Shown: piece by piece, positions 3,652 through 20,901 of the stretch | Position numbering within the stretch: position 1 is the first letter of the stretch | Layout of the letters: the number at the start of each line of letters is the position of its first letter | Virus record (IMG/VR): IMGVR_UViG_3300006922_000208 | Location: 1-22,235 of that record | Length of the DNA: 22,235 nt | Strand: one strand, 5' to 3' | Source of the DNA: a virus | Program-made: the position numbers and the translations under genes | The notes under the pieces: model-generated | Database searches by the model: none | What the model was told of the DNA's origin: nothing | What the model saw: the letters and a program-made list of their open reading frames with translations, nothing else

Positions 3652-3912
3652 TTATTTCTCCCAAAATTTGTGAGATGAGATGTCCCACTTTTCTTCGACA
3701 GGTTTCCCATACTCATCTTCATCAACGCAGATGTAGGCAACGGTCTTCAGTATCCGAGCGTAACGGAACCCATCAAGGGTCCAGAGTTTGTGGGGAAAGT
3801 CTTGAGCAAACTCAAGGTCTGTATTGCGTGAATACTCATGATAACCACCGACTGAACGCTCACGGAAACACCCTACTGTATTCGGATAATCTTCCCATTT
3901 CGCCATTCCCAT
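3652..3912 (-). CDS. First gene of the promoter-driven operon, unknown, 86 aa
   Basis: 86 residues (MGMAKWEDYPNTVGCF...). An ATG at 3906 would give MAKWEDY and is equally possible; both follow GAGAGTGAGAGTGAT. The protein is rich in Tyr, Trp and charged residues, with no TM segment, signal peptide or recognisable motif. It sits about 30 bases downstream of the expected start of transcription from the consensus promoter at 3948-3976, so it should be among the most strongly and earliest expressed genes here. That position is typical of small host-takeover proteins, but no such activity can be read from the sequence. Confidence 0.65.
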   Translation of the reverse strand: MGMAKWEDYPNTVGCFRERSVGGYHEYSRNTDLEFAQDFPHKLWTLDGFRYARILKTVAYICVDEDEYGKPVEEKWDISSHKFWEK

Positions 3913-7071: not shown

Positions 7072-7546
7072 CTTCTGTTCCCCATACAATTCCAAGATCG
7101 GGATAGTATGTGTACTTCTCCCGTTTTGGATTTCCATCCTTGTCATATGCCATAGCCACACAGTGTCGAATCATTCTCTTTTCCATGTTCGCACCGTAGT
7201 AGTCTGACGCCCAATCACCATTCTTTAGGTAACCTTCCATCAATGCAATGTATCCTTTGATCTTTGCATCTTCGGCAATGGCGCCCTTATGGTTTGTCCT
7301 TATTTGTTGTCGGATCGCAGGCAACTTGTCACGGTTCTCTTTGATCCACGACTTCACCGTTTGAAAAGACAGGGGATTGTCTTCGGGCAAAGCAAGGACA
7401 TCTGGGTGGATGTTTTTGTATGTGGGTGGGTTGGATTTGGCACGTTTCTCTCGCGCCAACTTGAGACGTTCCGCAGCTGCGGCACGTTGTTCTTCGGTCA
7501 TAGGTTTGCGTCTACGCCGAATCTTTGGTTTGGGTGTGGTTGCCAT
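7058..7546 (-). CDS. Conserved basic phage protein before the FEN nuclease, 162 aa
   Basis: 162 residues. The first 40 form a Lys/Arg-rich, partly helical tail (PKIRRRRKPMTEEQRAAAAE). Then come YKNIHPDVLALPEDNPLSF and a helical middle with IKGYIALMEGYLKNGDWASD, and the end is YYPDLGIVWGTEDDIS. I recall related proteins next to the RNase H gene in T4-like marine phages but no function. A basic tail suggests nucleic-acid binding. The start is firm: ATG at 7546, six bases after AAGGAG. It is the first gene of a unit with its own promoter (7572-7601). It overlaps the nuclease gene by 14 bases, so the two are probably co-translated. Confidence 0.75.
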   Translation of the reverse strand: MATTPKPKIRRRRKPMTEEQRAAAAERLKLAREKRAKSNPPTYKNIHPDVLALPEDNPLSFQTVKSWIKENRDKLPAIRQQIRTNHKGAIAEDAKIKGYIALMEGYLKNGDWASDYYGANMEKRMIRHCVAMAYDKDGNPKREKYTYYPDLGIVWGTEDDIS

Positions 7547-15579: not shown

Positions 15580-16269
15580 TTATTTCTCTTCTAGTGCGTC
15601 TACTATGTCTGGGAAATGAATGCCAACGATGTTCCAACATTTGTCGGCAATTTTCATGTGTTCTTTTTGTGTGCCGTTCTCACGGCGTAGTTCGCAATAG
15701 TGAATCCAAGAACGCAATGTACCACCCATATACAGTGTTGATTCTGTAAGTCCTTCTGGTAATACTGCTCTTGCCTGTTCCTTTGCGATTCCGTTGTCTA
15801 ACGCCCACTGGTAAATCTTTTTTGTCTCATGGATATGTCGGTGTTGCATCATATTCCATTCTTCAGACAAACGTCCTTCTGGGGTTGAAAGTCCGTCTTT
15901 GCGGACACGGTGATCTATTTCGATGCTGTTCTGTCTATTCTTGGGGTCTTGCAATCTTGCTTGACGAGAAGTAAAATTCTCACTGACCGCATACCGCTGA
16001 CTAAACTCTTGAAAACTAAAACTTCGATGTCTCAAGATTTGTCTGGCGATATCCCGCGTAGTTTTAATCTCCATTGTCATGTGTACCATTTCAAATGGAG
16101 ACCAGTGATTATTTTTTGCTAAGTACCGCAAAAGTTTGGGAGAGGTTTCTTTATTATTCTGGTTGTCGGGGTTACTCACCCTAGCAACATATGAAACCAA
16201 CTCTCCCGCAGTGCCACATCCTGTGATAGCAGAAGGTTTTGATACACTAATCAAATTCACTTCACTCAT
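15580..16269 (-). CDS. thyX: Flavin-dependent thymidylate synthase ThyX
   Basis: 229 residues. The ThyX signature RHRxxSxxxxSxR is complete at residues 80-92 (RHRSFSFQEFSQR). Upstream HWSPFEMVHMTMEI is the usual beta-strand region that binds FAD and folate, and the C-terminal half has the conserved LPEGLTESTLYMGGTLRSW. It methylates dUMP to dTMP using methylene-tetrahydrofolate and NADPH/FAD. It works with dCMP deaminase and NrdAB in the same cluster. T4 itself carries the unrelated Td; ThyX is common in marine T4-like phages. The start follows AAAGGA by seven bases (ATATATA). Confidence 0.97.
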   Translation of the reverse strand: MSEVNLISVSKPSAITGCGTAGELVSYVARVSNPDNQNNKETSPKLLRYLAKNNHWSPFEMVHMTMEIKTTRDIARQILRHRSFSFQEFSQRYAVSENFTSRQARLQDPKNRQNSIEIDHRVRKDGLSTPEGRLSEEWNMMQHRHIHETKKIYQWALDNGIAKEQARAVLPEGLTESTLYMGGTLRSWIHYCELRRENGTQKEHMKIADKCWNIVGIHFPDIVDALEEK

Positions 16270-16614: not shown

Positions 16615-17652
16615 CTAACATTTTTTCCATTGGTTAAAGTTAAATTGAGCAGACAGTCCACGGTATGTGTTGTTGTCTACTATATCTTGTACGTTCAAAC
16701 CACTTGTTACCATATCATTTATATCTTTCTGAGATATGCTCTCAGGCCAAATAACGACATTGTAATTCTGATCGACGTACTTTGACATCAACTTACAAAC
16801 ATCCTTGTTCTTCGGTTGATTATCAAAAACGATGCGAATTTTTTCTGGATCAAAACCTAGACTATCTATCTTATTGAAAGATGTTCCGGCACACGCAATG
16901 CAGTTGTCAAGAAACAGAGAATCCAGTGGACCCTCAACAACAGTGGCCATCTTTGTGTTATCCACCTGTTCCAATCCAAATACAGTAGGAGCATCTTCCC
17001 TAACTTTGACAAGGATGTATCTCAGTGTCTCACCACGCATGGCTCGCAAAGAAACGGCAGTCAATCTACCGTGTTTGTCAAAGAATGGAATTGCTAGTCT
17101 GGGTTCCTCCGTAATAATACTCGCCGCATACTTCTCATTCAGTTGTACAACATTTTTTATGTTGTCAATATAGTAAAGTCTGTCCCAAACTTTCTTGGGG
17201 ATATCTCGACTCTCCACATATTCGACAACCTCATGGTCATATGGTAATGTGCTTACCTTGTCCATTATATTATCTATAAGAGTCTTTACTTTTGGCTGTT
17301 CTGGTTCTTCGTTTTTGTCAAAGAGGGTGTGTCCGTTGGGTGTCCAATTGGACCCCGTTGGTTGCCACTGTTTTCTTTCTCCCTCGGTGTACTTCTCTAA
17401 ACAATATTCCTTGTATGATAATGGGTCAAGTTGTTTCAAAACATTCCCAAAACTAGCTCCGTATCCACATTTGTGACACTTGTAGATCATGTTGTTTTCT
17501 TTGCGGAAGAAGTATCCACGCATCTTGTTCAGTTTGCGTTTGGAGTCTCCACAGAAGGGACATCTCACATTAAAGAGATAGTCATTCTTGCGCTTGAATT
17601 TCTCAAAACGATAGGAAATGAAGTTTAGGTATTTTACGTCAACATATAGCAT
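16615..17652 (-). CDS. 61: DNA primase (T4 gp61-like)
   Basis: 345 residues. N-terminal zinc ribbon: Cys31-x2-Cys34 (RCPFCGDSKRK) and Cys59-x2-Cys62 (YKCHKCGYG). The TOPRIM core is VVEGPLDSLF (Glu240), IVFDNQP (Asp277) and SQKDINDMV (309-315). It makes the short RNA primers for lagging-strand synthesis together with the replicative helicase. Length matches T4 gp61 (342). ATG at 17652 is the only plausible start because the ribbon is close to the N-terminus. There is no Shine-Dalgarno, and the start is 6 bases after the -10 of a promoter (17659-17687), a point discussed in the findings. Confidence 0.95.
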   Translation of the reverse strand: MLYVDVKYLNFISYRFEKFKRKNDYLFNVRCPFCGDSKRKLNKMRGYFFRKENNMIYKCHKCGYGASFGNVLKQLDPLSYKEYCLEKYTEGERKQWQPTGSNWTPNGHTLFDKNEEPEQPKVKTLIDNIMDKVSTLPYDHEVVEYVESRDIPKKVWDRLYYIDNIKNVVQLNEKYAASIITEEPRLAIPFFDKHGRLTAVSLRAMRGETLRYILVKVREDAPTVFGLEQVDNTKMATVVEGPLDSLFLDNCIACAGTSFNKIDSLGFDPEKIRIVFDNQPKNKDVCKLMSKYVDQNYNVVIWPESISQKDINDMVTSGLNVQDIVDNNTYRGLSAQFNFNQWKKC

Positions 17653-17658
17653 CAGTCT

Positions 17659-17687
17659 ATAGTACTAGAAACCCATGTATAAGTCAA
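17659..17687 (-). promoter_or_regulatory. Promoter at primase start, TTGACT-N17-TACTAT
   Basis: Minus strand TTGACT (17687-17682) and TACTAT (17664-17659) are separated by 17 bases. The -35 lies inside the end of the glycosyltransferase-like gene. Six bases (AGACTG) separate the -10 from the ATG at 17652, so transcription would start at or within a base or two of the start codon. Confidence 0.7.
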
Positions 17688-18618
17688 GGTCTTTTTTGAT
17701 TTTCAAAGATTTTTCTAGTCTAGATACGTCATCTGCAAGTCGGGGTACTTCGGTAGGTAGTTGAATCTCTTCCAAGATTTCAAAACATCTTTTTTGGTTG
17801 TGTTTTCGGCACTCCAAAGTTTCTTCATGCAATTCTGGTAGTGTGTATTCTTCTCGCAGTCGTTTGAGTTCTCTAACCAACCCTCTTGCCCTGAGATATG
17901 GATTTGGTTCCATGTCATACTCGTAGTTGATTATTTGGTGTGGGAAATGAAATCCCCATTCCATGAGTGGGTCCATCATATTTTTGTTGCCAAAAATCAG
18001 AGGTAGTCTCATGCCAAGCATCGGTTTCCAAGTTTTTTCTGTATAGAACGTGTGATCTTCATGTGTCTCTACCACCAAGTCAATGAGACACAGATCATAC
18101 CAAGGCGGGAATCTGTGAGTCTTTTGTTGGTTATCACCTTTCCATACACATCTATCGACATCTTCTCTGTAGTGTTCTACAACATCCCTATAGATGCCTT
18201 TGCCGACAAAGGTGACATACTGACCAATACACCTCTGTGACAGTAACAGGTCATAAATCATCTCTCTGTGGGGTCTCTTCTGACCCAACATACATGTATA
18301 CAATTGGCAGGGTAGGCGGGATGTTTGCCAGTATTGTTCTGGGTCTACGCCGCTGTTTACGATATCCCAACAGGCATTCACCGTATCAATTAACCAGAAG
18401 TACGGCCAACTAATAAATTTTGTGTTGTTTTCGGGGTATTGTTTTGGATGTAAGTTACCAGTGATTTCTGTGTAACTTTTGACTTTTAGGGGTCGGTTGT
18501 TGTAATCGTAATCAGGTACAATTTCTACTTCATTGGAATTGTAAAACAAAACATCTTCGTTGTGGTATCGTCCACGCAGTAGAGAGTCTTTGGTTTGGTT
18601 ATCGTTGATTACAATCAT
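17665..18618 (-). CDS. Glycosyltransferase-like protein
   Basis: 317 residues. The best landmark is FYTEKTWKPMLGMRLPLIFG (from about residue 193), followed by NKNMMDPLMEWGFHFPHQII. This 'TEKTWKP...P.I.G....L...GF' segment resembles the nucleotide-sugar site of GT10/exostosin-like phage proteins, from memory. The first half is without landmarks. The end is charged helix (LRARGLVRELKRLREEY). If real it would modify a glycan, DNA base or virion protein. No TM segment. ATG at 18618 has no Shine-Dalgarno and lies 6 bases after the -10 of its promoter. I consider the fold plausible, the donor and acceptor unknown. Confidence 0.55.
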   Translation of the reverse strand: MIVINDNQTKDSLLRGRYHNEDVLFYNSNEVEIVPDYDYNNRPLKVKSYTEITGNLHPKQYPENNTKFISWPYFWLIDTVNACWDIVNSGVDPEQYWQTSRLPCQLYTCMLGQKRPHREMIYDLLLSQRCIGQYVTFVGKGIYRDVVEHYREDVDRCVWKGDNQQKTHRFPPWYDLCLIDLVVETHEDHTFYTEKTWKPMLGMRLPLIFGNKNMMDPLMEWGFHFPHQIINYEYDMEPNPYLRARGLVRELKRLREEYTLPELHEETLECRKHNQKRCFEILEEIQLPTEVPRLADDVSRLEKSLKIKKDLDLYMGF

Positions 18619-18624
18619 TACATA

Positions 18625-18653
18625 ATAGTACCACCAATGTGGCCAAATGTCAA
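18625..18653 (-). promoter_or_regulatory. Promoter at glycosyltransferase-like gene start, TTGACA-N17-TACTAT
   Basis: Minus strand TTGACA (18653-18648) and TACTAT (18630-18625) are 17 bases apart, with a perfect -35. Six bases (TATGTA) separate the -10 from the ATG at 18618. The spacer contains a small inverted repeat CCAC-ATTG-GTGG. The -35 overlaps the stop of the preceding tail-anchored protein gene. Confidence 0.78.
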
Positions 18654-20463: not shown

Positions 20464-20865
20464 TTATGAGTCGGGGAATTCAGTATCGTCATCATCGGCA
20501 GTAGCGACAGCAGTACCCGTTCCAGTACCAGCGCCAGAAGCGGTGAATACTGTGCCTGGGTTAGAGTCAGCGGCACCAACTGCGGTGAAGTCGGTAGTTC
20601 CAGTGGTAAGAATTTTGTACTCAGTTGCGGCGGCAAGAGCAGTAGCGACAACACCTACAGCCGCCTCGTATACTGCGTCAGTAGATGCGGATGCCATAGC
20701 AACAAGAGTTTCATACTTCTTGCGCGAACCGACAGTAGTTCTCCGTACCCAACCGGGCTGTGTAATACCAGCAGTAGCAGCGACTTCCGCTTCGTCAACC
20801 ATAAAGATTTCAGATGCAGGAATCCCAGTAATTACTGGCTTATTGGATTTTGACCATGCGCTCAT
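20464..20865 (-). CDS. Small virion-like protein, 133 aa
   Basis: 133 residues. The first part has PGWVRRTTVGSRKKYETLVA (about residues 37-56), a segment I have seen in small virion-associated proteins of T4-like marine phages. After an Ala-rich helix comes EYKILTTGTTDFTAVGAAD and then GTVFTASGAGTGTGTAV, the Gly/Thr-rich beta module frequent in phage fibres, followed by an acidic tail (DDDDTEFPDS). Probably a structural or decoration protein. It is the first gene after the TATAAATA late-promoter box at 20894-20901, and ATG at 20865 follows AAGGAG with a seven-to-eight-base gap. Late expression fits a virion role. Confidence 0.78.
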   Translation of the reverse strand: MSAWSKSNKPVITGIPASEIFMVDEAEVAATAGITQPGWVRRTTVGSRKKYETLVAMASASTDAVYEAAVGVVATALAAATEYKILTTGTTDFTAVGAADSNPGTVFTASGAGTGTGTAVATADDDDTEFPDS

Positions 20866-20893: not shown

Positions 20894-20901
20894 TATTTAT
20901 A
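20894..20901 (-). promoter_or_regulatory. T4-type late promoter, TATAAATA
   Basis: TATAAATA on the minus strand (20901-20894) is the exact -10 of T4 late promoters, recognised by the phage sigma gp55 with the gp45 clamp. It overlaps the stop codon of the upstream gene (20899-20897). Transcription should start about 6-7 bases on, near 20887, leaving a leader with AAGGAG before the ATG at 20865. No other exact copy upstream of a gene was found on this strand. Confidence 0.88.

Follow-up and report, generated by a model that had tools for sequence, protein, structure and literature searches.

Gene organization of the window

The window analysed here is the whole 22,235-base virus record IMGVR_UViG_3300006922_000208, part of the genome of a marine T4-like phage, in which almost all of the genes lie on the minus strand, in a dense same-strand array with short gaps. 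A gp61-type DNA primase of 345 residues is encoded at 16615..17652 (minus strand; phrog_47, E 3.3e-69), and its zinc-ribbon cysteines C31, C34, C59 and C62 are invariant in 14 relatives. Downstream of it lies a gene for ThyX (15580 to 16269, minus strand). The gene immediately upstream (17665..18618, minus strand; TAG stop 17667-17665), referred to below as the upstream gene, codes for a 317-residue protein, and is itself preceded by the gene for a DUF7201 coiled-coil protein (19087-18650, minus strand; TGA stop 18652-18650), relatives of which sit ahead of the primase in many loci. The 317-residue protein matches no PHROG or Pfam family. Its structural model is of low confidence (pLDDT 61) and the best PDB matches of the model, to alpha-1,3-fucosyltransferases, are non-significant (E 0.04); the protein is therefore described only tentatively as glycosyltransferase-like (GT10-like). 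In a search of a phage collection the best primase matches, which are also the nearest cultured ones, are from cyanophages and only about 41% identical, such that no cultured phage is close to the window.

Two promoters abutting start codons

As the sequence-only reading of this DNA had reported, and as the coordinates bear out, both the primase and the upstream gene are preceded on the minus strand by the arrangement TTGAC(A/T)-N17-TACTAT-N6-ATG. The -35 box of the primase (TTGACT, 17682..17687) lies within the final codons of the upstream gene and is kept in relatives, and its -10 box (TACTAT, 17659..17664) comes right after the TAG stop of the same gene, the relatives having TANNNT or TATAAT in its place. 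The A of the primase ATG (17650..17652) is the predicted first transcribed base, with a start one base earlier being possible, as judged from the geometry and the N-termini of 14 relatives. For the upstream gene, the -35 box (TTGACA, 18648..18653) extends across the TGA stop codon at the end of the DUF7201 gene, the -10 box (TACTAT, 18625..18630) is preceded by TG, and the predicted first base is the A of the ATG (18616..18618) or the one before it, again from the geometry and the N-termini of relatives. The distance from the preceding stop to the ATG is 12 bases for the primase and 31 for the upstream gene. Both -10 boxes match the consensus at four of six positions. The bases preceding the two ATGs are G and A, purines that are rare in the class of starts described below, so that at these two genes a 1-base leader is as likely as none.

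Neither start, both of them ATG, has a Shine-Dalgarno core match, in agreement with the earlier reading; its statement that most other genes here have a readable ribosome site was too strong, since 13 of 30 plausible starts pass a strict AGGA/GGAG/GAGG test. The same reading held that no later in-frame Met is compatible with the primase zinc ribbon, and this stands: the next Met, at position 44, already falls within the ribbon, and C31 and C34 are invariant in the 14 relatives. A wrongly assigned primase start codon is ruled out by the N-termini of the relatives, which align from the window ATG. T4 middle and late promoters are ruled out as well: for a middle promoter, the -35 positions read TTGACT and TTGACA, with no MotA box, and for a late promoter there is no 7-of-8 match to TATAAATA within 60 bases of either start. 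Other promoter types occur elsewhere on the minus strand of the window. A TATAAATA T4-type late box is found at 20894-20901, 36 bases ahead of an ATG at 20865 that has a good Shine-Dalgarno. The start at 3912 is preceded by a sigma-70-like promoter with a 12/12 match at N35, and that at 7546 by TTGACA-N18-TACTAT at N25 with a Shine-Dalgarno present, both corresponding to ordinary leaders.

The exact pattern was matched twice, compared to no match in 100 dinucleotide shuffles. A loose form (-10 of TANNNT, one mismatch allowed) is not rare, with 0.7 matches expected, and promoter-like sites are not enriched between 12000 and 22235 (17 found versus 20.5 expected from shuffles). The case consequently rests on the position of the sites relative to the ATG and on their conservation.

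The primase promoter among relatives

Searching with the window primase yielded 32 loci, to which an alignment search added 80; 84 primases were placed in a tree. Among the 32 loci, most carry TTGAC(A/T)-N17-TANNNT followed by 6 or 7 bases to the primase ATG, down to 54% protein identity (N6 in L006, L010, L015 and L026; N7 in L013, L016, L020, L025 and L027). The exceptions are L012 and L014, at N10, and L022, L023, L033 and L034, which have leaders (N22-N26). Sigma-70-like boxes, mostly TTGACW-N17-TATAAT-like, are carried by 71 of the 84 tree loci. By the distance of the -10 box from the ATG, the 84 divide into 24 at N6-N8, 14 at N9-N13, 33 with a leader and 13 in which no promoter is clear, in counts which include near-copies and in which the best promoter within 60 bases may be a chance match in single rows. 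The clade of the window primase (11 rows, SH-aLRT 99) shows only N6-N7, plus two N10 rows, and a pelagiphage-type clade has the in-between distances of N9-N13. Over the whole tree the N6-N8 state requires 12 changes, versus a shuffled mean of 21; it is clustered on the tree but has changed repeatedly.

Within nine members of the window's clade, mean identity is 93% in the -35 box and 80% in the -10 box. The corresponding figures are 44% for the 17-base spacer, 47% for the 20-base stretch upstream and 43% for four-fold degenerate sites of the primase. The upstream neighbour of the primase and the intervening gap vary among relatives, and the promoter stays with the primase. This pattern of sequence identity indicates that selection has kept the geometry of the primase promoter across the whole clade, and since the geometry is so kept, the promoter probably supplies the primase separately from read-through RNA. 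Conservation in relatives, on which the proposal of leaderless starts partly hung, was found for the primase, where boxes and spacing are kept throughout the clade and recur further out; for the upstream gene it extends to one other lineage only.

Two further features of these primase loci were observed. L099 and L104 contain a palindrome-like TTCCTACTTAGGAA in the spacer between the -35 and -10 boxes, possibly an operator. In L075 (S-8S55), L078 (S-PRM1) and L234 (Syn33), the primase is annotated to begin about 135-250 bases into the conserved frame, which would remove the zinc ribbon partly or wholly, and the conserved promoter precedes the upstream start.

The upstream-gene promoter and possible promoter copying

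The other lineage that retains the upstream-gene promoter is L006, in which the protein is 63% identical and the promoter has an N18 spacer, TATTAT in the place of the -10 box, and N6. The geometry is absent at the homologous starts in L010, L013, L014, L015 and L016, which have no promoter and lie after T-rich sequence. At the glycosyltransferase-like starts of L010, L013, L014 and L016, which have no Shine-Dalgarno either, the T-rich stretch is of the TTTGTTATG type and perhaps represents a different ribosome-recruiting element.

The window's upstream-gene promoter and the primase promoters of L012-L014 all begin with TTGACATTTGGCC, and because this sequence is common to them, one of the promoters may be a copy. 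In G017 (23891-24148, plus strand), two near-identical promoters, the first ahead of a 59-residue ORF and the second ahead of the primase, are separated by 219 bases, in what looks like a promoter duplication. The copying of a promoter during gene insertion would likely explain the matching geometry of the window's two sites, which are therefore not to be counted as independent. The earlier argument that the coincidence of N17, TACTAT and N6 at both genes makes chance less likely agrees with the absence of the exact pattern from shuffled sequence, but is weakened insofar as it counts two independent coincidences.

Promoter-to-ATG distances in whole genomes

The distances between sigma-70-like promoters (at least 10/12 matches) and the ATG starts of called genes were enumerated in 15 relatives and the window, about 1.5 Mb in total. 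The counts at N6, N7 and N8 are 16, 6 and 3, respectively (25 in total), versus 1, 0 and 0 in a reversed-pattern control. They fall to 0-2 at N15-N18, and are followed by a broad leadered peak at N24-N34. When upstream regions were shuffled, 2.9 +/- 1.7 starts at N6-N8 were obtained, compared to 24 observed. A chance origin of the window's sites is ruled out by this positional peak together with the conservation in relatives.

A Shine-Dalgarno core is found in none of the 31 rows of the leaderless class (28 distinct plausible genes), versus 81 of 145 in the N24-N34 class, an absence that is partly forced, since the -10 box fills that place. A first Shine-Dalgarno census, which took the best start within 25 codons, was biased and was replaced by a position profile. 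Of the 28 distinct members, 25 have T or C directly before the ATG, these being the favoured -1 bases for transcription starting on an A. The class includes replication genes; among its members are genes for the primase, a DNA polymerase (G024), PHROG exonucleases (G023 and G029) and a polynucleotide-kinase-like protein (G030). The gene for a gp55-like late sigma factor in G015 is at N10. In G030, three similar TTGACATTTGGTCGCGAATCGACTATAGTAAAT-type promoters, two of them near-identical, are located at 76534, 78830 and 79893 (minus strand), with a GTCG/CGAC inverted repeat in the spacer.

Split hairpins in a sister group

A sister group of primase loci (L091, L093, L095-L097, L100-L102, L106-L110 and L126) shows a related arrangement about 35 bases before the primase ATG. 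Here the -10 box adjoins the 5' arm of a terminator-like hairpin, the T-run of which ends just before the ATG, and the predicted start, taken as the seventh base after the -10 box, falls inside the 5' arm. Folding of the read-through RNA gives about -7 to -12 kcal/mol, versus 0 to -1.9 for the promoter's own RNA, a difference that shuffled leaders almost never match (for L100, the higher-scoring -10 box was used in this test). In L116 and L125, the hairpin masks a Shine-Dalgarno instead of having the terminator-like form. The loci are related to one another, yet their hairpin arms differ in sequence; RNAalifold found no consensus for the leaders of this clade, the arms being misaligned, and the leaders were folded singly instead. 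The start position predicted in this group fits the start site assumed for the leaderless class, and the folding suggests that these phages may keep primase expression separate from read-through. A split hairpin also occurs before another gene in W03 (S-PM2; 138914-139426, plus strand), where the read-through RNA folds at -12.7 and the promoter's own RNA at -1.2 kcal/mol.

Proposed mechanism and alternative explanations

We consider it probable that promoters of the sigma-70 family place the start of transcription at, or within 1-2 bases of, the A of the ATG, and that leaderless mRNAs result. Messages that are leaderless or have a leader of 1-2 bases are the best prediction from the promoter positions, most firmly for the primase; the earlier suggestion of leaderless transcripts is supported, as a prediction, by the conservation of the primase promoter and by the N6-N8 peak. 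The housekeeping holoenzyme of the host would start at or next to the A of the ATG, the mRNA would begin with AUG and have no Shine-Dalgarno, and a ribosome with initiator tRNA would bind the 5'-terminal AUG by the leaderless route. RNA reading through from upstream would offer no ribosome site at the primase ATG. From these features we infer the start site, the activity of the promoter during infection, translation by the leaderless route, expression before the late phase (early or middle, as the earlier reading suggested) and the insulation of the gene.

Were the boxes unused, polycistronic RNA from further upstream would carry both genes, and their translation would be coupled to the stop codon ahead of each. 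The dense same-strand array with its short gaps would suit such an arrangement, the primase ATG is near enough to the upstream stop (12 bases) for coupling from read-through RNA to work, and T4 gene 61, which starts 2 bases after 61.1, shows no such promoter. We nevertheless regard it as very unlikely, as the sequence and spacing of the boxes have been kept while their surroundings drifted, the promoter stays with the primase while neighbour and gap vary, and unused boxes would not give rise to a genome-wide positional peak. The promoter could alternatively be real and its RNA leaderless, but serve mainly the genes further downstream (a 105-residue ORF, ThyX and beyond), with weak and incidental translation of the primase. 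By the same test no separate promoter precedes the next genes of the window, and nrdA comes next after the primase in many relatives; an ordinary-length leader would, however, serve such genes equally well, and the sharp N6-N8 peak with a trough beyond it suggests selection on the distance to the ATG, which leaves this explanation unlikely.

The preferred reading assigns the boxes to a plain sigma-70 promoter. A promoter specific to the phage, its -35 box extended (TTGACATTTGGYC) and recognized by a phage regulator or a modified polymerase, would instead account for the recurrence of TTGACATTTGG(T/C)C in the window's upstream gene, L012-L014, G017, G029 and G030. Many members of the class are without the extension (among them the primases of the window, L016, L026 and L027), and the shared part fits common descent, so that we view such a promoter as quite unlikely.

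In a broader and more tentative proposal, which we hold to be possible but somewhat doubtful, T4-like phages of marine and other waters would gate the primase and a few further genes by making translation depend on the gene's own sigma-70 start. In one group the ATG would be well translated only as a 5' end; in the sister group the position of the start site would deprive a hairpin, of terminator or ribosome-site type, of its 5' arm, so that read-through RNA would be silenced and expression confined to RNA made from the promoter itself. The two would then be alternative solutions to one insulation problem.

Comparison with known systems

In phages, leaderless translation is generally seen as a marginal phenomenon. 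Some giant phages have late transcripts without a leader. In the open literature searched, which mostly leaves out subscription papers, we found no case of leaderless mRNA in T4-like phages, nor a conserved class of leaderless genes in them. The leaderless mode with an adjacent -10 box is itself well known in other organisms (PMC12340547, PMC4633059). In Deinococcus-Thermus, the -10 motif adjoins the ORF in leaderless genes, which make up about a third of the genes and mostly have no -35 (PMC12340547). Like those genes, the starts described here have TANNNT just before the start codon, no ribosome site, and an mRNA predicted to start at the codon; unlike them, they have a strong TTGACW at N17 and number only a handful per phage genome. 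Leaderless transcripts are also known from mycobacteria, with further examples in lambda, P2 and Tn1721, phage genes being among the earliest cases (PMC4633059). As in these examples, the promoter abuts the coding sequence and the start codon is (here by prediction) 5'-terminal; the phage cases concern temperate phages of E. coli, whereas the present ones are found in T4 relatives, include replication genes and are conserved across a clade. Leaders in Lactococcus cremoris are shorter than 5 bases or about 40, with none between 4 and 14 (PMC10986495). A similarly bimodal distribution is seen here, although in L. cremoris it concerns cellular genes with mapped ends, and here it is predicted from promoter position, the pelagiphage-type clade being in between (N9-N13). 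Like T4 early promoters, the present ones have sigma-70-like boxes; unlike T4 middle and late promoters, they have no MotA box and do not read TATAAATA, and transcription is predicted to start at the start codon.

If the prediction is true, a conserved leaderless class would lie in abundant T4-like marine phages, replication genes included, and the efficiency with which a host reads leaderless mRNA would then determine the timing of phage genes, the annotation of their start codons and compatibility with the host.

Cultured representatives

The prediction is open to test now in the cultured methylophage Melnitz, and in pelagiphages HTVC008M and Mosig, which have near-leaderless versions of the primase promoter (N11 and N10, respectively); for HTVC008M the predicted leaders are about 3-5 bases long. 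The primase of Melnitz (EXVC044M), whose start was annotated by others, is preceded by TTGACA-N17-TATATT-N7-ATG, and three more author-annotated starts (8419, which belongs to a MazG-like gene that precedes recA, 38547 and 66627) are at N7-N8, giving four annotated starts with leaderless-type geometry (8419, 26014, 38547 and 66627). In the complete Melnitz genome the pattern occurs 11 times versus once in the control, several of the occurrences being inside genes. The authors of that genome found no middle promoters, and retained a promoter only where it was intergenic or lay no more than 10 bases from the end of an ORF (PMC9004378). In six cyanophages the same primase promoter stands at N23-N27, i.e., in leadered form, and no such promoter was found at T4 gene 61. 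Melnitz also contains TTGACT-N17-TATTAT-N5-ATG (MZ577097, 48659-48710, plus strand) before a 5-codon ORF (MLYNE, stop), the first base of which is 60 bases upstream of where the ssDNA-binding protein is annotated to start.
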